13,089 nucleotides of DNA, taken from an uncultured Eubacterium sp. Its GTDB lineage: Bacteria > Bacillota > Clostridia > Peptostreptococcales > Anaerovoracaceae. Positions 947 through 12,152 of the stretch are shown one piece after another. Position numbers and translations under genes: made by a program. Location of the stretch: NCBI GenBank assembly GCA_900542385.1, contig UQNP01000040.1, positions 1 to 13,089 of the forward strand, in the 5' to 3' direction. Numbering within the stretch: the stretch's first letter is position 1; the number at the start of each line of letters is the position of its first letter. Under the pieces are notes generated by a model. It saw only the letters and a list, made by a program, of their open reading frames with translations, was not told the origin of the DNA and searched no databases.

Positions 947-1270
947 TTACAGTTCTTCAGGTACAGCTATTACCATTCCGGGATACAGATCAGATGCTTC
1001 AATACCGTCATTTGCCTCGCTGATCTCAAAAACTGCCTCTCGTATATCAGTATCGTCGTTTTTATACCTGTCAGCTATATTCCATAAAGTATCGCCGCTT
1101 TTTACGTGTACGTATTCATATTGAGGTTTAGTCAACGCTGTAGATATATTCAAACCGGTCACTGCGCTGAATCCGCTTATGATTATTCCAAGCATTATAA
1201 CTACAGATGTTATGAATCTTGCTTTTGATTTGATCCTGTATTTTTTTCTCTTTCTCTGACTGCTTCTCAT
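947..1270 (-). CDS. yneA: LysM single-pass membrane protein, YneA-like SOS cell-division suppressor
   Basis: A 107-residue protein with a very basic cytoplasmic N-terminus (RSSQRKRKKYRIKSKAR), one membrane segment (about residues 19-40), a short linker, and one LysM domain (about 51-105) with YVHVKSGDTLWNIADRY and LYPGMVIAVPEEL. LysM binds the glycan of peptidoglycan. Length and order match YneA of Bacillus, which halts septation after DNA damage. The function is inferred from this architecture plus three LexA boxes in the promoter. Known YneA proteins are usually encoded beside lexA; none is in view here. The start chosen is ATG at 1270, with GGGGAG at 1280-1285. A TTG at 1297 with AGGAG 8 nt upstream would add nine residues (MFRKGEYKY) and cannot be excluded. 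Without the boxes, this would be only a generic LysM protein. Confidence 0.75.
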   Translation of the reverse strand: MRSSQRKRKKYRIKSKARFITSVVIMLGIIISGFSAVTGLNISTALTKPQYEYVHVKSGDTLWNIADRYKNDDTDIREAVFEISEANDGIEASDLYPGMVIAVPEEL

Positions 1271-1318
1271 ATATTTATACTCCCCTTTCCTGAACAAACA
1301 GCACTCTCCTGCCCTTTC

Positions 1319-1330
1319 AAACGTTTGTTC
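1319..1330 (-). promoter_or_regulatory. LexA/DinR box 3 (just downstream of the start point)
   Basis: GAACAAACGTTT on the minus strand matches GAACRNRYGTTY at every position. It begins a few bases after the predicted transcription start. Box centres are 30 and 34 bp apart, about three helical turns, so the dimers would lie on roughly the same face of the DNA. Confidence 0.75.
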
Positions 1331-1343
1331 TTTTTATATTCAT

Positions 1344-1372
1344 AGTATATCAGAATATATGTTCGTAGTCAA
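1344..1372 (-). promoter_or_regulatory. Sigma-A-type promoter of the LysM/yneA-like gene
   Basis: Read on the minus strand, TTGACT (plus-strand 1367-1372) is separated by exactly 17 bp from TATACT (1344-1349), each one base off consensus. The start point would be near 1337, giving a leader of about 65 nt to the ATG at 1270. It is strong by sequence, so repression would be needed to keep the gene off. Confidence 0.85.
1353..1365 (-). promoter_or_regulatory. LexA/DinR box 2 (promoter spacer)
   Basis: CGAACATATATTC on the minus strand has a perfect CGAAC left half and an ATTC right half, one base from the consensus GTTC. It lies wholly between the -35 and -10 boxes, where bound LexA would exclude RNA polymerase. 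Confidence 0.75.
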
Positions 1373-1382
1373 GTATTTTTAT

Positions 1383-1394
1383 AAACATTCGTTC
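1383..1394 (-). promoter_or_regulatory. LexA/DinR box 1 (upstream of -35)
   Basis: GAACGAATGTTT on the minus strand is a full match to the Gram-positive LexA consensus core GAACRNRYGTTY. It lies 11-22 bp upstream of the -35 hexamer. Confidence 0.75.
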
Positions 1395-1395
1395 T

Positions 1396-1485
1396 TTATT
1401 CGTTGACTTCTATTCTCGCAGAAAAATCTACACTTTGATTTGCCAATATCTCAAGCCCTGATTCTACTCTTCCCAAATAGATATG
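1396..1485 (-). pseudogene. Possible out-of-frame C-terminus of the small lipoprotein
   Basis: In another minus-strand frame, after a TAG at 1486-1488, an open stretch encodes GLEILANQSVDFSARIEVNE and ends at TAA 1396-1398. The residue mix looks like real protein (alternating hydrophobic and polar, no low complexity), and it overlaps the end of the preceding lipoprotein frame. Gain of one base near 1474-1485 would join the two into a protein of about 89 residues. The joined stop falls one base before LexA box 1. The evidence is compositional only. Confidence 0.35.
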
Positions 1486-2626: not shown

Positions 2627-3928
2627 TCAGATAGCTATAAGTCCTCTGTCTTTCATTTCCTGAAGAGCTCTTATGACACCGAACTTGGAATGTTCATATG
2701 TGAGTCCTCCCTGAAAATAAACTATGTACGGCTCCCTTATCGGAGCATCAGCCGAAAGTTCTATCGAAGAGCCCTGTACGAAAGCTCCTGCTGCCATTAT
2801 CACCGGATCATCGTATCCCGGCATATCCCACGGCTCAGGCATTACCTGTGAATCCACCGGTGCCGCAGCCTGTACGCCCTGACAGAAAGCGATTATTTTT
2901 TCAGGACTTTTAAGCTTGACCGACTGTATTATATCGCTCCTCATGTCTTCAGGACCCGGGCAGACTTCATATCCCAGAGTTTCAAAAACTTTAGCGCATA
3001 GAACAGCACCTTTTAAGGCACCGTTCACAGTTTTAGGCGCAGTGAACAATCCCTGCAGGATCGAACGTGTCTGACCGAAAGTAAGCCCGCATTCTCCGCC
3101 TATACCGGGAGAGGTCATTCTATAGGATACATTATCTATAAGATCTTTTCTCCCTGCCACATATCCCCCTGTCAGAGCAAGCCCTCCTCCAGGGTTTTTT
3201 ATCAAAGATCCGGCCATGATATCAATACCGACATCTGTAGGCTCCTTTGTATGCAGAAATTCGCCGTAGCAATTGTCTGCCATACATATTATCTGCGGAT
3301 CTATATTTTTCACAAAAGCTGTCAGTTCTTCAATTTCTTCTATGGAGATCGCTTTTCTCCAGCTGTATCCCGTTGCCCTCTGCATCGCCACCATCCTGGT
3401 CTTCGGACTTATAGCGTTTTTAAGGGCGTCAAAATCTATCCTGCCGTCAGCCGTAAGCTCTACCTGCTTATACGATATACCGTATTCCATCAGAGAGCCT
3501 TTGCCTTCTCCCCTGATGCCTATAGTCTCCTCAAGAGTATCGTAGGGAGCTCCTGTACAGTATATAAGCTCGTCTCCCGGTCTCAGTACTCCTGCTAAAG
3601 CCAGGGAAAGAGCATGTGTCCCGTTCACTATCGTAGGTCTCACCAAGGCTGCTTCTGTGTTGAATATGTCGGCATAGACCCTTTCGACTGCATCCCTTCC
3701 GGGATCGTCGTATCCATATCCCGTATTCCATGAAAAGTGCATGTCCCTTATGGAATTCTTCTGGAACGCCGCCAGCACTTTATATTGATTGTATGTCATC
3801 GTATCGTCCATTTCTCTGAATAAATGGACCGTCTGTTTCTCACATTTATCTATGAGCTTGAGGATCTCTTCTGATATCCCAAACTTTTCCCGAAGGAGTC
3901 TGTAAGTATTATTCTGCATTTTCTTCAT
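2627..3928 (-). CDS. ynbB: YnbB-type PLP-dependent enzyme (methionine gamma-lyase / 'aluminium resistance' family)
   Basis: A cytosolic PLP-fold-type-I enzyme of about 433 residues, matching the family length. In this numbering the phosphate-binding turn is NGTHALSLAL (from about 102), the aspartate contacting the pyridine ring is in ADNCYGEF (D218), and the Schiff-base lysine is in SLIKNPGGGLA (K244). HFSWNTGYGYDDPGRD and PEPWDMPGYDDPVIMAAGAF are family hallmarks. The reaction is not established; homology to Cys/Met lyases suggests sulfur amino-acid chemistry, and the aluminium-resistance label is historical. The start at ATG 3928 is preferred because GCAGGAGC ends 6 nt upstream. The in-frame ATG at 3952 has no ribosome binding site. 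It overlaps the preceding GLUG gene by 20 nt, which implies translational coupling. Confidence 0.88.
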   Translation of the reverse strand: MKKMQNNTYRLLREKFGISEEILKLIDKCEKQTVHLFREMDDTMTYNQYKVLAAFQKNSIRDMHFSWNTGYGYDDPGRDAVERVYADIFNTEAALVRPTIVNGTHALSLALAGVLRPGDELIYCTGAPYDTLEETIGIRGEGKGSLMEYGISYKQVELTADGRIDFDALKNAISPKTRMVAMQRATGYSWRKAISIEEIEELTAFVKNIDPQIICMADNCYGEFLHTKEPTDVGIDIMAGSLIKNPGGGLALTGGYVAGRKDLIDNVSYRMTSPGIGGECGLTFGQTRSILQGLFTAPKTVNGALKGAVLCAKVFETLGYEVCPGPEDMRSDIIQSVKLKSPEKIIAFCQGVQAAAPVDSQVMPEPWDMPGYDDPVIMAAGAFVQGSSIELSADAPIREPYIVYFQGGLTYEHSKFGVIRALQEMKDRGLIAI

Positions 3929-5597
3929 CGTCTTGCTCCTGCTGGTTCTCATCTACGGATTCACTGTACATCAAGAGCGCATCCGTGAGATAGTTATCGG
4001 GATTGAATATACTAAGGATTATACCTCCCTTATTTGACGCATCTGTGTTGTTTATGAGGTAATTGTCTAATTTCCTCTGTACGTCCATAGAAACCCCGTC
4101 TATATAAGATTGATCTTCAGAAGAAAGCGGTTCCTGCCATCTCAGCACAGGATATCCCTTTCCTCCGTAAAGGCCTGAAGAATCACGCATATATGATATG
4201 CTAAGCGCCGAAGCCATACCGCTGAGCGAGCCGCCGGTAACTCCCGATGCGCATTTCTGCACTTCCGCCGGGCCTGAGCCGTTGTTATCGCCTATTCCGC
4301 TGTCGCAGTACTCATTCAGATAATAATTGTTTTCTATATATGTCTCTACACGGGCATCATCGTCAGCTATGTATGTGCCGATGACTCCTCCTGTGACGTC
4401 AGCTCCGGAAATATCACCGGCGCCGTAGCAATTTGATATGACTACTCCGTCAGTACCTACCGCACCTACTACTCCGCCTGCCCAGGCTTCGCTGAACTCC
4501 TTTTTCTCATCGATCTTCTTGATTTTTATATCTCCTGTATTGTAACTGTTTATCACGGTGGAATGCTCTGCATTGGTATAACCTACTACTCCGCCTGTTG
4601 CTTCAGTTGCAGAATTAATCGGACCTATATTGTAGCATTCCGATACCACTGCATCAGATGCTACAGATCTTCCCGCAACTCCGCCTGTACCGAAGGTTGC
4701 AACACCTCTCACCGAAGATGATACAGCGCCTTCATTACCGCATCTTTCAACAGTGCCGCCCCAGTTTTCGCCGACTACTCCGCCGACCTTATAAGTTCCC
4801 TTTACGCGGCCCTTGTTTATACTGTCTGTTATTGTTCCGCCGTTGTTATTACCTGCGATCCCTCCGGTTTTGCTCCTCGCTGATACATCTATATCGGAAA
4901 CACATTCCGTTATTCTTCCTGCCGAATCCAGTTCTCCGACGATACCTCCGCAGTCTCCGGAGGTCGATTCTATCGTGCCTTTTAATGTGAGATTCCTTAC
5001 TTCACCTGTAAGATATCCGAAAAATCCCGTATTGGTTTCGCCGGCTGATATATCAACACCGCTTATGGTATGACCGTCTCCGTCAAAAGTTCCTGCAAAG
5101 CTTACAGATGAATCTGAGCCTATAGGCGTCCACTCCCGGGTGAGCTTTATATCTTTCGTAAGGGTGAATGTGACCCCTTCAAAGCTCTCTACACGCGTAG
5201 GCTTCCAGAGAGGCTGTTCTTCATTGACAAGACTTGCCAGTCCCCTGAGCTGCGCTTCGGATGTTATGTTGTATTCAGTTTTCGGATTTTTATAATCAAA
5301 CCAGGAAGTATCTACATCGCCTGTATCAGCTTCGTCGTTATCTTCTTCGTCTTCCTCACTTCTGCTGTCGTTATCGGAGTTGTTGTTTCTGTCCTGCTGA
5401 TTTTCATCCTCTTCATCTGTATTGTTTTCAGAGCCGCCGTTTTCTTCGCCTGCTCCTCCGTTATTTTCATAGTTTTCACTGTTGTTTTCGTTCCGGTTGT
5501 TTTCCCGTGTATTGGTCACAGCAAAAGAGAACGCCGTGGAAAACGCCATTATCATTATAAGTATCGAAGCCGTCAGTACAGTAATAACTTTTTTCAT
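3909..5597 (-). CDS. Secreted GLUG-repeat beta-helix protein with Asn/Asp/Glu-rich linker
   Basis: A 562-residue exported protein. Residues 1-26 are a signal peptide ending near SFA. Residues 29-97 are low-complexity Asn, Glu, Asp and Gly, very acidic. The module from about 107 to 205 (YNITSEAQLRGLASLVN, FAGTFDGDGHTISG, GFFGYLTGEVRNLTLKG) opens the helix. At least seven GLUG turns follow: GGIVGEL (217), GGIAGN (245), GGVVGEN (272), GGVAGRS (305), GGVVGYT (335), GGVVGAV (374) and GGVIGTY (403). The typical KGYPVLRWQ closure is at about 480. An acidic tail ends in DDEENAE. No LPXTG, S-layer-homology or choline-binding anchor is seen, so it is probably released or loosely held. Related GLUG proteins include adhesins, but no ligand can be named. 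It starts 4 nt after the recombinase stop and overlaps the YnbB-like gene. Confidence 0.85.
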   Translation of the reverse strand: MKKVITVLTASILIMIMAFSTAFSFAVTNTRENNRNENNSENYENNGGAGEENGGSENNTDEEDENQQDRNNNSDNDSRSEEDEEDNDEADTGDVDTSWFDYKNPKTEYNITSEAQLRGLASLVNEEQPLWKPTRVESFEGVTFTLTKDIKLTREWTPIGSDSSVSFAGTFDGDGHTISGVDISAGETNTGFFGYLTGEVRNLTLKGTIESTSGDCGGIVGELDSAGRITECVSDIDVSARSKTGGIAGNNNGGTITDSINKGRVKGTYKVGGVVGENWGGTVERCGNEGAVSSSVRGVATFGTGGVAGRSVASDAVVSECYNIGPINSATEATGGVVGYTNAEHSTVINSYNTGDIKIKKIDEKKEFSEAWAGGVVGAVGTDGVVISNCYGAGDISGADVTGGVIGTYIADDDARVETYIENNYYLNEYCDSGIGDNNGSGPAEVQKCASGVTGGSLSGMASALSISYMRDSSGLYGGKGYPVLRWQEPLSSEDQSYIDGVSMDVQRKLDNYLINNTDASNKGGIILSIFNPDNYLTDALLMYSESVDENQQEQDDEENAE

Positions 5598-5601
5598 TCT
5601 C

Positions 5602-6744
5602 TTATTCCCTTTCCTTTGATTCCTTCCTCTCCGTCTCCCATTCCATATCTTTTACCAGATCTCTTTTCACATTCATCTTATGATTGGCATAAAACTGCGT
5701 TGTCGTCACCTGTTCGTGATCCAAAAGGGCCTGGACATCAAATATAGAATTGCCCCTTCCTATAAGGCTCGTAGCTGCTGTAGCTCTCAGTTTATGAGGG
5801 CTGTATCCTGTTTTTCTGGACGTAGACATTCCTATGGAAGTGTATTTTTTGACCAGCTCGCGTATCTGCCTTTCAGTCATTCGTCTTCCCTGCAATGATA
5901 AAAACAGCGCATCTTTATGCATATCATCTATTTCATCGTCTGAAGCACGTTCATTTTCTATGTAGTCCTTAACAGTTTCGGTCACAGAGCTATTAAGGGG
6001 CATGATAGCTTCTTTGTCGCGTTTCCTGTATATTTTGAATTCTCCTCGTGAAAAATTGAAAGACGAAACGTTTAGCTGCTGAAGTTCAAAAAGTCTCAGA
6101 CCGTAGGTTATGAACAGCATAAGGATAGCTTTATCTCTTTTTTTTGTCTTTTCCCAGTACTGTTTTTCCTTAGGCGTAAGCTCCGTACCGTTGGATACCG
6201 CATCAAGCATGATCATCACTTCGTCATCCTGGAGCGCTTTGATTTCACGTTCACCTGCTTTAGGCACTCTGATCGGATCGAAGCCGTCAGTTATGTTCTT
6301 TTCTATGACTTCTTGTCTGTAAAGCTGCTTGAACATTACAGAAAGAGAGGATTTCTTTCTCGCCAGCGTCCTGTTGCTGTTTTCGTATATTACTTTGCTG
6401 TCCCCTTCCTCCACTGTATATCTTCTGCAGTAATCAAGGAATATATTAACGTCCACTGCTTTAATATTATTAAATTCACCGGCTTTTATGTCAGAGATAT
6501 CTTCAGCTTCCGTGAGGTCAGTCTCATCTATGAGATAGCGGCAGAAAAACTTTATATCGCTTAAATACGAAAAGCGTGTCATAGGAAGCACATTACCTTT
6601 CAGATAAGCAAAAAAGCCCCTTAAAAAGCTGGGCAGTTCTCTTTCTATAGTTTCACACTTAAGCAGGATCTCATGTTCCTTAAGGACTATATTATCCGGC
6701 TTGTCGCTTTTATTTCGGAGCTTTATATTTTTTTCTCCAGCCAT
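5602..6744 (-). CDS. Xer-type tyrosine recombinase
   Basis: A 380-residue tyrosine recombinase with an intact active site. The core-binding (SAM-like) domain spans about 36-155 (FLRGFFAYLKG, TRFSYLSDIKFFCRYL). The catalytic domain spans about 165-365. Visible catalytic residues are R217 (TYGLRLFEL), K241 in the beta-hairpin (YRKRDKEAIMPL), H317 and R320 (SPHKLRATAAT), H343 (ALLDHEQV) and nucleophile Y352 (TTQFYANH). It is longer than classic XerC/XerD (about 300 residues) through a 35-residue N-terminal extension, inserts near 110-120 and 185-203, and a charged tail. It would cut and rejoin DNA; whether it acts on dif or on another site is not visible. It overlaps miaA by 22 nt and has only a weak ribosome binding site, so translation is probably coupled. 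No att-like repeats or other mobile-element genes flank it. Confidence 0.88.
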   Translation of the reverse strand: MAGEKNIKLRNKSDKPDNIVLKEHEILLKCETIERELPSFLRGFFAYLKGNVLPMTRFSYLSDIKFFCRYLIDETDLTEAEDISDIKAGEFNNIKAVDVNIFLDYCRRYTVEEGDSKVIYENSNRTLARKKSSLSVMFKQLYRQEVIEKNITDGFDPIRVPKAGEREIKALQDDEVMIMLDAVSNGTELTPKEKQYWEKTKKRDKAILMLFITYGLRLFELQQLNVSSFNFSRGEFKIYRKRDKEAIMPLNSSVTETVKDYIENERASDDEIDDMHKDALFLSLQGRRMTERQIRELVKKYTSIGMSTSRKTGYSPHKLRATAATSLIGRGNSIFDVQALLDHEQVTTTQFYANHKMNVKRDLVKDMEWETERKESKERE

Positions 6745-7665: not shown

Positions 7666-9513
7666 TTATACTCGTTTGAACATTTTTTCTATTTCATATT
7701 TCGTCATTCTGACAAAAGTCGGCCGTCCGTGAGGACAGGAAAAAGGATTTTCACATCCGTTAAGATCCTTAAGCAGAGCTTTTATCTCTTCGAAGGTAAG
7801 ATGATCGCCTCCTTTGACTGCACTCTTGCAGGATCTCATTATTATCCTATCCAGCGATTTCCGGTCGGTCAGATCAGGTTTTTCTTCCAGCTGCATGAAC
7901 ACATCCTTTAAGAAATCCTCCGCTTCTGCAAGCTCCATGAATGCTGGGATCTCACGCACTATGTATGTCTTGTTTCCAAAGTATTCTATATCATATCCCA
8001 TATTTCTCAGGCAGCCGATCCAGTCGCTTTCAGTCTCCGGTATGTGCGCCGGAACACTTACATTGATCGGGACAAGAAGTCTCTGCATAGCCTTCTGTGA
8101 TGAAGTATACTGGTTTAAAAGCTTTTCATAGAATATCCTTTCATGAGCGGCGTGCTGATCTATGAGATAAAAGTCAGTTCCGTCTGAAGCTAAAATATAA
8201 GTATTAAAAATGCTTCCGAAACATTCCAGCCCTGTAAAATCCGGTATCCTCGCAGAAAACTCAGGCGTTTTAACTTCCGGTATTTCAGCTCGATCTTCAT
8301 TTTTTAATTCGGTCACCTTATCTTCCTTTAAAACCGTTTCATGCTGAGATACGCTCTTCTGCCTTAGAGAATGCAGCATGTCCTTTATATCTATCTGTTC
8401 TTCCGGCTCTTTTTTTACGTTCTGCGGTTTAAAGGTGTTTTCCTCTGATGTCCCCGGCTCTTTTTCAACTGTCTGCGACGCTTTGGGAACTGCCGGTTTT
8501 ATATCTTCTGCCCTTATCTGCGGCAGCGCTTCCATGGAGTCCAGAGCGTTCCTTACCGATGATGATATGAAATCTCTGACCTCAAAATCATCATCGAATC
8601 TCACTTCTTTCTTTGTGGGATGTATATTTACATCTAATTTTGAAGGGGGCATCGACAAAAAAAGAAAGGCTGCCGGATATCTCCCATGGAAAAGTTTATC
8701 GTGATAGGCATCGTCTACAGCTCTTTCGATGACTTTGCTCGACACCACACGTCCGTTCACACAGAAGATCTGTCTGCTTCTTGATGAAGAAGATGCTGAC
8801 GGAGCAGATATATATCCTTTCAGAAGATATTCGCCTCTTCTGCTTTCTACCGGGAGCAGATCTCTTCCTGTATCGTTTCCGTATATGCTGACTATGCTGT
8901 TGAATATATTTCCTCTGCCTTGAGTGGAAAAGACTTTGGACCGTCCGTTTATCAGCGTTATCCTTATATCCGGATAGGACAGTGCTATCCTTGATACCAT
9001 ATCTATTATGCGCCTTGATTCTCCATTGTCAGAAGACAGAAACTTTTTCCTTGCAGGCACATTGTAGAACAGATCTCTGACGCTCACCGTAGTACCGTCG
9101 GGACATCCACACCCCTCGTTTACTATGATCTCGCTGCCTTCCGTCACTATACGCCTGCCTATTTTGTTTTCAGAGGTTTTGCTTATAAGCTCGACTCTTG
9201 AAACTGCGCATATGCTTGCAAGTGCTTCCCCTCTAAAACCTAAAGTTATTATCGAATCGAGATCCTTTACTGATGATATCTTGCTCGTCGCATGACGTTT
9301 AAACGCCGTTTCGATATCTTCCGGAGATATCCCGCATCCGTTGTCCGTAACTCTTATATACGATTTTCCGCCGTTTTTTATTTCAACTGTTATGTTGTCG
9401 GCTCCGGCGTCTATGGAATTTTCCAAAAGCTCTTTTATGATAGACACAGGCCGGTCTATGACTTCTCCTGCGGCAATCTTATCTGCAACTTTCTTTTCAA
9501 GAACATGTATCAT
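7666..9513 (-). CDS. mutL: DNA mismatch repair endonuclease MutL
   Basis: A 615-residue GHKL ATPase that links MutS recognition to strand nicking. N-terminal ATPase motifs: KELLENSIDAG (E28, N32), DNGCGI (D57), GFRGEA (92-97), GTTVSVRDLFYNVPARKKF (140-158) and the phosphate-sensing lysine in HPTKKEVRF (K301). A charged linker runs from about 335 to 420. The C-terminal nuclease domain shows DQHAAHERIFYE (452-463), fitting DQHA(X)2E(X)4E, SCKSAVKGG (561) and CPHGRPT (593-599). QRLLVP (477-482) fits the sliding-clamp-binding motif known in B. subtilis MutL. This is the nicking type of MutL found where MutH is absent. Its ATG overlaps the mutS stop (ATGA). The GGAGG 16 nt upstream is too far to act alone, so it probably relies on coupling. 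Confidence 0.97.
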   Translation of the reverse strand: MIHVLEKKVADKIAAGEVIDRPVSIIKELLENSIDAGADNITVEIKNGGKSYIRVTDNGCGISPEDIETAFKRHATSKISSVKDLDSIITLGFRGEALASICAVSRVELISKTSENKIGRRIVTEGSEIIVNEGCGCPDGTTVSVRDLFYNVPARKKFLSSDNGESRRIIDMVSRIALSYPDIRITLINGRSKVFSTQGRGNIFNSIVSIYGNDTGRDLLPVESRRGEYLLKGYISAPSASSSSRSRQIFCVNGRVVSSKVIERAVDDAYHDKLFHGRYPAAFLFLSMPPSKLDVNIHPTKKEVRFDDDFEVRDFISSSVRNALDSMEALPQIRAEDIKPAVPKASQTVEKEPGTSEENTFKPQNVKKEPEEQIDIKDMLHSLRQKSVSQHETVLKEDKVTELKNEDRAEIPEVKTPEFSARIPDFTGLECFGSIFNTYILASDGTDFYLIDQHAAHERIFYEKLLNQYTSSQKAMQRLLVPINVSVPAHIPETESDWIGCLRNMGYDIEYFGNKTYIVREIPAFMELAEAEDFLKDVFMQLEEKPDLTDRKSLDRIIMRSCKSAVKGGDHLTFEEIKALLKDLNGCENPFSCPHGRPTFVRMTKYEIEKMFKRV

Positions 9514-12152
9514 ATGTATTCTTTAAGTTCCTCCAGTATTTTCAGAGCCTGAGAAGGTGTGGTCTCCATGAGATCCAGCTCTTTCAGGCGTTTTACTATC
9601 GTGTTAGGCGCAAGATCGAACAATGACATTTGCTGAGGTGCAGCTGTATCATCTTCTACGCCTGCTTTGTGGTCGGCTTTTTTTGCACTTTCGGTATACA
9701 TGATCTCTTCCGCTTCTCTGCTCCTGCTTTCCAGCTCTTCCAGACGCTCTTCCGCGCGCGACAGCAGCTCCTCCGGTGCTCCTGCCAGCCTGGCGACATG
9801 TATTCCGTAGCTCCTGCTGGCGCTGCCTTCTACTATTTTATGGAGAAATACTACGTTTCCGTTTTCTTCAGCCACATCTACGTTAAAATTTTTTACACCT
9901 TCCAGAGTTTCTTCAAGCTCTGTCATCTCGTGGTAATGGGTGGCAAACAGCGTTCTTATCCTGCGATCTTTCCTGCATATGTATTCAGCGGCAGCCCAGG
10001 CTATGGAAAGTCCGTCATATGTACTTGTGCCTCTGCCTATTTCATCGAGGATTATCAGGCTCCTTTCAGTGGCCGTATTGAGTATGTATGAAAGCTCGCT
10101 CATTTCAACAAAGAACGTACTTTGCCCCTGTGCAAGATTATCCGACGCGCCTATACGCGTAAATATCCTGTCGCATACACCTATCCTGGCGCTGTCGCAA
10201 GGAACGAAGCATCCCGCCTGAGCCATGAGCACTATGAGTGCAGTCTGCCTCATATATGTGGATTTTCCGGACATATTAGGTCCCGTTATTAACAAAAGGC
10301 TCTGATTTCTCTTGTCGAGATATACGCTGTTTCCTACGAATATCCCGTCTCTTATAGTCTGTTCTATGACAGGATGTCTGCCGTTTTCTATGGCTATTAC
10401 ATCTTCTTCGTTCACCTCCGGTTTGACGTAACCGTTGGTTTCTCCTGCGTCTGCGAAAGAAACGAGGACATCTAAGGCTGCTATAGCTTTGGAAGTTTGC
10501 TGTATAGACTCTGTATATTCTTTCAGTTTGTTTTTGATTTCAGTGAAAAGTTCATATTCCTGCTGATTTATTCCTGTCTCAGCATTTAAAACGAGTCTTT
10601 CAGTCTCTTTCAGCTCCGGTGTTATGAATCTTTCACAGTTTACAAGCGTCTGCTTTCTTATATAATTTTCAGGTATCAGATCAAAGTATGATTTAGTTAC
10701 TTCTATATAGTAACCGAAAACTTTATTGTATCCGACCTTCAGATTTTTTATGCCGGTCCGCTCTCTTTCGCTGTTTTCAAGACCGGCTATCCAGCTTTGC
10801 GCATCTTTTATCGAATTTTTAAGCTCGTCAAGCTCTGCGGAATACCCTTCTTTTATTATTCCGCCTTCTTTTACAGTATACGGAGGATCATCCACTATAC
10901 TTTTTTCGATAAGTTCATATACTTCTCCAAGATCGTGTATCTCATCGTTCAGCTTGGAGAGCAGCATATCATCCAGAGATGCAAGATCTTCCTTTACAGC
11001 AGGAATAGCGCGGCAGGAATTTTTAAGTGCTATCAGATCCTTACCGTTGGCGCTTCCGCATGATACACGGCCGACAAGTCTTTCAAAATCGTATACGAGC
11101 TTCAGATGCTCCCTTATATTGTTTCTCGTCAGAATATTTTCAGTAAGACATTCAACGGCGTCAAGTCTCATCCGTATTTCGCCAACGCTTTTGAGCGGCT
11201 CTTTTATCCACTGTTTGAGCTTTCGCGATCCCATAGCCGTATGAGTCTTGTCCAATACTCCGAGCAGAGAGCCTTTTATCTTTTTTTCAAATAAAGTTTC
11301 CGTAAGTTCAAGGTTTTTTATCGTCGACTTGTCCAAAGACATATGCCGTCCCATGGAATAGGTATCAAGGGATACTATATGGCCAAGACTGCCCTTTTGA
11401 GTCTCCATAAGATAAAGAAGCAGCGATCCGAGAGCTGATTCAGCAGCCGAATCTTCCTCTATTCCTATACCCAGCAGAGCGCCTACTTTGAACTGATTCT
11501 TTATGGTCTCACGCAGTGCATCGCGTCTGTAATATTCATCTCCCAGAAAATTAAAATAAGCCTCTGTCACGGGCTTCATTTTTTCTGTCTGTATTATACT
11601 GTCCGTACTCTTATTTAAAAGCACTTCCTTGGCATTTATTTTGACCAGTTCATTTGTAAGATTTTCTATTCCCGTACTTCCCTCTATAGTTGTAAGATGT
11701 ATCTCTCCCGTTGAAATATCACAGTATGCAAGACCTATCTTTGTTTCATCCGCGAATACAGAAGCTATGTAGTTGTTCTCCTTTTCATCAAGCATGCTGC
11801 TGCTTGTCACGGTCCCGGGAGTGACTATACGTATCACTTCTCTCTTTACGATCCCCTTTGCAGATGCCGGATCTTCCGTCTGTTCACATATAGCGACTTT
11901 ATATCCTCTTCCTACGAGACGCGCTATGTATGTATCTGCGGAGTGGAAAGGAACACCGCACATGGGTGCTCTTTCCTCCATTCCGCAATTCTTGCCTGTA
12001 AGGGTGAGTTCAAGTTCTTTAGATGCCAGCTTCGCATCATCAAAAAACATTTCATAGAAATCCCCCAGCCTGAAAAACAGTATACAATCGCGGTAGTTCT
12101 CCTTTATATCCAGATACTGCTGCATCATAGGTGAAATTTTTTTTGACGCCAT
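9510..12152 (-). CDS. mutS: DNA mismatch recognition ATPase MutS
   Basis: An 880-residue MutS1 of normal length. The mismatch-binding wedge is in GDFYEMFFDD (F32-Y33-E34). Connector, lever and clamp domains follow, with LKVGYNKVFGYYIEVTK (471-487) in the clamp/lever region. The ATPase has GPNMSGKST (624-632, Walker A), GQSTFFVEMSE (676-686), LDEIGRGTS (Walker B, D703/E704) and ATHYHEM (H739). A variable linker leads to QQMSLFDL (840-847), a sliding-clamp-binding motif. The final tail, about 850-880, matches the MutS tetramerisation tail. Start ATG 12152 shares one base with the aminotransferase stop (TGATG) and has AGGAAG upstream. Confidence 0.98.
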   Translation of the reverse strand: MASKKISPMMQQYLDIKENYRDCILFFRLGDFYEMFFDDAKLASKELELTLTGKNCGMEERAPMCGVPFHSADTYIARLVGRGYKVAICEQTEDPASAKGIVKREVIRIVTPGTVTSSSMLDEKENNYIASVFADETKIGLAYCDISTGEIHLTTIEGSTGIENLTNELVKINAKEVLLNKSTDSIIQTEKMKPVTEAYFNFLGDEYYRRDALRETIKNQFKVGALLGIGIEEDSAAESALGSLLLYLMETQKGSLGHIVSLDTYSMGRHMSLDKSTIKNLELTETLFEKKIKGSLLGVLDKTHTAMGSRKLKQWIKEPLKSVGEIRMRLDAVECLTENILTRNNIREHLKLVYDFERLVGRVSCGSANGKDLIALKNSCRAIPAVKEDLASLDDMLLSKLNDEIHDLGEVYELIEKSIVDDPPYTVKEGGIIKEGYSAELDELKNSIKDAQSWIAGLENSERERTGIKNLKVGYNKVFGYYIEVTKSYFDLIPENYIRKQTLVNCERFITPELKETERLVLNAETGINQQEYELFTEIKNKLKEYTESIQQTSKAIAALDVLVSFADAGETNGYVKPEVNEEDVIAIENGRHPVIEQTIRDGIFVGNSVYLDKRNQSLLLITGPNMSGKSTYMRQTALIVLMAQAGCFVPCDSARIGVCDRIFTRIGASDNLAQGQSTFFVEMSELSYILNTATERSLIILDEIGRGTSTYDGLSIAWAAAEYICRKDRRIRTLFATHYHEMTELEETLEGVKNFNVDVAEENGNVVFLHKIVEGSASRSYGIHVARLAGAPEELLSRAEERLEELESRSREAEEIMYTESAKKADHKAGVEDDTAAPQQMSLFDLAPNTIVKRLKELDLMETTPSQALKILEELKEYI

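Follow-up and report, generated by a model that had tools for sequence, protein, structure and literature searches.

A triple LexA-type operator upstream of a yneA-like gene apart from lexA in a probable member of the Anaerovoracaceae

The window, i.e. the whole stretch of 13,089 bases that was analysed, carries on its reverse strand a yneA-like gene (947..1270, ATG at 1270) for a protein of 107 amino acids; the open-reading-frame listing gives 116 amino acids from an upstream TTG, and the length of 107 is counted from the ATG. The control region is read on the same strand. LexA-type box A (GAACGAATGTTT, 1383..1394), an exact match to the pattern GAACRNRYGTTY, lies upstream of the -35 hexamer TTGACT (1367..1372). 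Box B (GAACATATATTC, 1353..1364) has one mismatch, an A in place of G at box position 9 that weakens its right arm, and lies wholly within the 17-bp spacer. It is followed by the -10 hexamer TATACT (1344..1349), which like the -35 hexamer was located by a promoter scan and is preceded by TG at 1351-1352 (extended -10). Box C (GAACAAACGTTT, 1319..1330), again an exact match, is found just past the inferred start point at about 1337, and a likely ribosome-binding site (AGGAAAGGGGAG, 1280..1291) was recognized by reading the sequence. The upstream neighbours, also on the reverse strand, are genes for a VTT-domain membrane protein (1867-2607) and a Met_gamma_lyase-type protein (2627-3952), both assigned by Pfam; according to the synteny, these two genes are the usual upstream context of yneA in the family discussed below. 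No RNA family or tRNA was found in the window.

An earlier note on this DNA had reported three SOS boxes within 76 bp, two of them full matches and one a base off, with centres 30 and 34 bp apart. The coordinates bear this out (centres 34 and 30 bp apart, counted from box A). Across the whole 13,089-base window the pattern GAACRNRYGTTY is matched exactly twice, both times within 1319-1394, at an expectation of 0.07, and at least two exact matches were seen in 2 of 200 shuffles of the window. Three non-overlapping boxes in 76 bp occurred in none of 300 window shuffles, two boxes in four of 300. Regarding the promoter, the scan yielded four promoter-like sites in the stretch, compared with a shuffle mean of 5.0; because scan hits are no commoner than in shuffles, the promoter call rests on conservation and not on the match. 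The placement of the boxes upstream of -35, between -35 and -10 and after the start is upheld by their positions and by conservation; the promoter match alone is no better than in shuffles, and the start is an inferred one.

The first 19 relatives, fetched from a profile scan, all had three boxes upstream of the gene; each box had at most one mismatch in 18 of them, and in the remaining one (L017) the third box was two mismatches off. Among 119 sampled genomes of the family to which genome G001 belongs (hereafter the family), 91 yielded a match to the YneA model at E 1e-10 and 28 lacked one at that threshold. From the 94 family YneA matches 93 loci were fetched, in which the number of boxes (at most one mismatch, 260 bp upstream) was four in 10, three in 63, two in 14, one in two and none in four; the 20 loci with fewer than three boxes include some that want for upstream sequence. 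At least two boxes stood upstream of the gene in 86 of 91 family loci, compared with 0 of 87 control stretches taken 0.8-1.1 kb upstream. A strict layout rule, requiring the promoter hexamers, a spacer box and one further box on either side, was applied to 111 family loci, comprising the window, L001-L018 and 92 others. The strict layout was present in 86 and absent from 25 of these loci (shuffles, 1 of 2440), and a box in the spacer was present in 93 (shuffles, 86 of 2440). Within the 86 strict-layout loci, the -35 hexamer was TTGACA in 52 and TTTACA in 27, and TG preceded the -10 hexamer in 68. The strict layout was also found in 11/11 lexA-adjacent loci of the order and in 16 of 29 lexA-adjacent loci of the phylum, 28 of the latter having at least three boxes, with the triple between lexA and yneA. 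Three boxes are not special to a yneA gene away from lexA, as the same triple occurs in lexA-adjacent loci. No relatives in viral contigs were confirmed.

The sites appear to be of the Gram-positive SOS (LexA) type, as the earlier note had proposed, since the same motif stands upstream of recA and lexA of the relatives. The lexA gene is present in all 19 relatives and recA in 18 (absent from the search result in G017; partial and below the cut-off in G006). Each of the 18 recA loci had at least one exact box upstream, and one or two boxes with at most one mismatch preceded lexA in 18 of 19 relatives, none of that quality being found upstream of lexA in L038. In G001 and G002, exact boxes also precede two further genes, one radA-like and one encoding a Y-family polymerase; the name radA-like is a probable one, read from the sequence and its Pfam domains, and the box of this gene in G001 falls within a longer reading frame, directly ahead of the probable start. 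The strict triple pattern occurred once per genome in 12 of 19 genomes, each time with the sequence of this promoter, and the reversed pattern never; the seven genomes missed have one box with a different arm. Counts of exact single boxes were rejected as proof of a regulon (box versus reversed pattern, 7/14 in G001, 6/13 in G002 and 25/17 in G019). The excess of reversed matches in G001 and G002 would suit another repressor's sites, or a chance cluster in AT-rich DNA, but the lack of the triple in the shuffles, its conservation across the family and the boxes at recA, lexA and the two further genes leave such an origin of the repeats hardly credible.

No lexA was found in the window, where the best tblastn match of 19 LexA queries extended over 17-21 residues at E 0.08 or worse. 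The claim that no lexA is adjacent was confirmed and applies equally to the family: tblastn with the 19 LexA proteins detected no lexA in 93/93 family loci, mostly covering 3 kb on each side (under 1 kb on one side in 14). The same queries detected lexA in 29/29 phylum loci, divergent and within 1 kb of yneA. The best 30 loci of the phylum sample consisted of these 29 and of G019, a family member without adjacent lexA; this figure leans to good YneA matches, because 84 of 199 genomes had a match and the loci are the 30 that scored best. In the order sample lexA was adjacent in 11 of the 22 best loci. The other 11 comprise six that are in the family sample (G019, G061, G053, G029, G070 and G041) and five outside it, also without adjacent lexA (G039, G043, G027, G031 and G051), whose absence from that sample does not by itself place them in another family. 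Regarding the latter five, lexA is on another contig in G039, G043 and G027, and no lexA was found at E 1e-10 in G031 and G051; the approximately 5 kb fetched upstream held neither lexA nor Met_gamma_lyase in G039, G031, G043 and G027, and the upstream stretch of G051 ends at the contig end. As order genomes outside the family sample are also without a nearby lexA, the pair may have split more than once. The loci L286-L289, from four genomes of the order, hint at repeated splitting, each having a YneA-like gene in whose vicinity neither lexA nor Met_gamma_lyase was found.

The flanking genes suggest which partner moved. The order Met_gamma_lyase, lexA, divergent yneA is found within 1.5 kb in 4 of the 11 lexA-adjacent order loci and in 6 of the 29 phylum loci, and the family genomes show Met_gamma_lyase, often the VTT gene, and then yneA. 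Met_gamma_lyase is upstream and on the same strand in 16 of 17 family loci with upstream room, preceded by mutS, mutL, miaA or a XerS-like gene as far as each locus reaches; in L012 the gene run is on the other side. Since Met_gamma_lyase precedes both the lexA-yneA pair and the lone yneA, it seems that yneA stayed and lexA left an ancestral divergent pair, with yneA keeping the triple operator. Judged from the sampled loci, the family-wide split of lexA and yneA is new here; among the open-licence papers listed, no title or abstract opening describes the pair as split or mentions a lexA-distant triple operator. G019 is Bacilliculturomica massiliensis, of the Anaerovoracaceae, and because it falls within the family of G001, that family is taken to be the Anaerovoracaceae. 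The window probably belongs there too, by synteny and by 66% protein identity to L001. Immediately upstream of box A, a stretch of some 19 codons (1420-1476, reverse strand) resembles the cleavage-site stretch of LexA, with E values of 0.08-0.4 for most of the 19 LexA queries and a LexA profile score of 7.4 bits (best of 40 shuffled windows, 5.7). The profile found nothing of note in the matching gap of L001 or L002. The stretch was rejected as a simple relic of the departed divergent lexA, as it is on the yneA strand and thus on the wrong one; it is a weak hint, possibly chance.

The protein has a basic N-terminus (its first 18 residues contain ten K or R but neither D nor E), one membrane helix at residues 16-38 (AlphaFold2 model, with hydropathy in agreement) and a C-terminal LysM domain at about residues 55-104 (Pfam LysM, 39.7 bits). 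The AlphaFold2 model (mean pLDDT 77.6, pTM 0.47) shows the LysM part as strand-helix-helix-strand, and LysM domains make up most of the top Foldseek matches, of which none reaches an E value of 0.001. From the basic N-terminus, the LysM domain is predicted to lie outside the membrane. The best named family is NCBIfam YneA (NF010723, equivalog), at 50.8 bits and below the cut-off of 60 bits. The 107-residue membrane-anchored LysM protein resembling YneA that had been described is thus recovered in size, helix, domain and best named family, at a score under the cut-off; the suggested HMM comparison likewise names YneA as best match and falls short of the 60 bits. The relatives straddle this value (P0020, 60.2; P0033, 60.3; P0008, 58.9; P0027, 51.3; G019, 66.5), and a match over the cut-off was found in 33 of 119 sampled family genomes. 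Since the protein matches YneA best and its relatives straddle the cut-off, it is read as probably YneA-like in action at a score below the threshold.

In 30 aligned relatives G59, T61, L62 and W63 are invariant and D60 is nearly so. According to the part of the source considered, D46 and T47 of Bacillus subtilis YneA are required for peptidoglycan binding, and certain residues of its helix are critical (PMC13396833); the conserved D60 and T61 probably occupy the positions of D46 and T47. A Prc/CtpA-type protease, which in the passages considered is described as degrading YneA in B. subtilis (PMC6851548, PMC13396833), matched in 19/19 relatives, 18 times over the cut-off. FtsW-family matches were obtained in 19/19 relatives, 11 of them over the cut-off. 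The criterion for a YneA is that septal peptidoglycan synthesis is blocked through FtsW. A clade-specific N-terminal motif of the KYRIKSKxRF type was rejected as a general signature: the pattern tried is found in 33 of 111 family proteins and in 0 of 11 lexA-adjacent order proteins. The gene could also be LexA-controlled and encode another SOS-induced envelope protein, e.g. for wall protection or remodelling. This would agree with the score below the YneA cut-off, with a layout of one helix and LysM that is common, and with BLAST identities of only 25-38% to the 11 lexA-adjacent order homologues; such a role is judged improbable, given that YneA is the best named family, that the family genomes include those 33 over the cut-off, and that promoter layout and Met_gamma_lyase neighbour are as in lexA-adjacent yneA genes.

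Regarding the spacing of the boxes, the A-B distance is 28-31 bp in 78 of 86 family loci. The B-C distance in the 86 loci is 26-31 bp in 52, 33-39 bp in 33 and 51 bp in one, with 32 bp in none, and the modes of the two groups are about half a helical turn apart. In 80 of 86 loci, 2 bp separate box B from the -35 hexamer and 3 bp separate it from the -10 hexamer. The narrow A-B spacing would be expected if the boxes served helically phased, cooperative binding of LexA, but it can also arise because the spacer fixes the place of box B and box A adjoins the -35 hexamer, and the two B-C groups speak against it, so that this purpose of the boxes is unlikely. Because of the B-C distribution helical phasing was set aside; of the two points made in the earlier note, that the boxes are near-phased is contradicted in the helical sense, and that they bind cooperatively finds no support in a bimodal spacing.

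The three boxes differ in how well their cores are kept. Over the 86 loci the core arms of box B show 52 deviations, 51 of them at position 9 and the other at position 4; those of box C are intact in 84 (i.e., two deviations), and those of box A deviate in 18, spread over four positions. An ATTC arm is present in box B in 49 of 86 family loci, compared with 0 of 11 lexA-adjacent order loci; both arms are full in 26 of 86, and the family members whose middle box is intact include G019. The TG of the extended -10 is about equally common with the ATTC arm (41 of 49) and without it (27 of 37). The Fisher p of 2e-4 for the middle box is too optimistic, because the rows are kin, and the 14 changes of middle-box state on the tree of 119 YneA proteins are a rough count, because 60 of the 116 inner branches of that tree are left open and its resolution is therefore poor. 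The recurrent one-base weakening of the middle box, as read from these loci, is new here. It may tentatively be viewed as a feature of a post-split operator, in which the outer boxes are strong and a middle box pinned by the spacer has been repeatedly weakened at position 9, tuning the release of the brake relative to lexA and recA, so that yneA would form an arm of the SOS response with timing of its own.

Very probably the region is a promoter under LexA control that drives an SOS division inhibitor of the YneA type, in a bacterium assigned to the Anaerovoracaceae, and it would derive from a lexA/yneA intergenic region. This reading draws on the sequence of the boxes, their conservation, their likeness to the recA and lexA boxes and the separation from lexA in relatives, and it predicts LexA binding, induction and division arrest. 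In an undamaged cell, LexA dimers on the three operators (before -35, in the spacer and past the start) would block RNA polymerase. On damage, RecA filaments would trigger the self-cleavage of LexA, the operators would clear and the small protein would be made; its helix would target the division machinery, its outer LysM domain would bind septal peptidoglycan, and septum synthesis would be stopped until repair. The promoter would have descended from the shared lexA/yneA intergenic region, the operators staying with yneA when lexA left. Strong outer boxes, a weak middle box and a near-consensus promoter may give repression that is tight and still releasable. As lexA and recA mostly have one or two boxes, compared with three here, a later release of the brake is predicted. 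In Escherichia coli, sulA is such a later-released division brake.

Among known systems, YneA of B. subtilis is described, in the part of the source considered, as SOS-induced, with an N-terminal helix and an outer LysM domain that are both needed for the division block (PMC13396833). The small protein studied here likewise has one N-terminal helix and a LysM domain, with YneA as best named match; unlike the divergent lexA/yneA pair of B. subtilis, the gene is not beside lexA, and the score is below the YneA cut-off. A further mark of the locus in the window, in a comparison that covers the protein and the gene context, is the weakened right arm of its middle box. The gene clo1313_1450 of Clostridium thermocellum is also a YneA-like LysM gene with LexA sites, and the excerpt places three sites upstream of the divergent lexA (LexA_1449) (PMC8457756); the gene in the window resembles it in having three LexA-type sites, but according to that excerpt the C. 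thermocellum gene shares its intergenic region with lexA, whereas the present operator serves a YneA-like gene without lexA. SosA of Staphylococcus aureus, ChiZ of Mycobacterium tuberculosis and DivS of Corynebacterium glutamicum are introduced as SOS-controlled, one-helix division inhibitors co-located with lexA (PMC6851548). The gene in the window is apart from lexA, and its product has a LysM domain, which SosA and DivS lack.

Such co-location is presented as common among Gram-positive SOS division inhibitors in the portion considered of a 2019 paper (PMC6851548). Here is one family in which the pair is apart in every sampled locus; the genes on either flank point to the partner that probably moved, and the operator has survived. 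Its loci offer natural variants for studying what makes three LexA sites necessary for a brake gene and how far joint control of lexA and yneA matters for timing, and the single weakened base in the middle box provides a sharp prediction that can be tested cheaply with reporters. If the tuning reading holds, the timing of yneA would have been freed from the autoregulation of lexA.

Further genes were noted around the locus. A 130-aa probable lipoprotein (259-651) is convergent with the yneA-like gene and has weak DUF5640/lipocalin-like matches below the cut-off. A 73-aa probable lipoprotein (1464-1685), with no Pfam family and no NCBIfam match over the cut-off, lies between the VTT gene and the promoter; in L002 a threonine dehydratase-like gene (8602-9807, from a reading of the sequence) is located between the VTT gene and yneA. 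A 562-aa protein with a GLUG motif (3909-5597) has its end overlapping the listed start of the Met_gamma_lyase frame. A XerS-like tyrosine recombinase (5602-6744; 144.7 bits, cut-off 267) is encoded beside miaA-mutL-mutS, and in 8 of 11 lexA-adjacent order loci a homologue of it directly follows yneA, encoded on the opposite strand.
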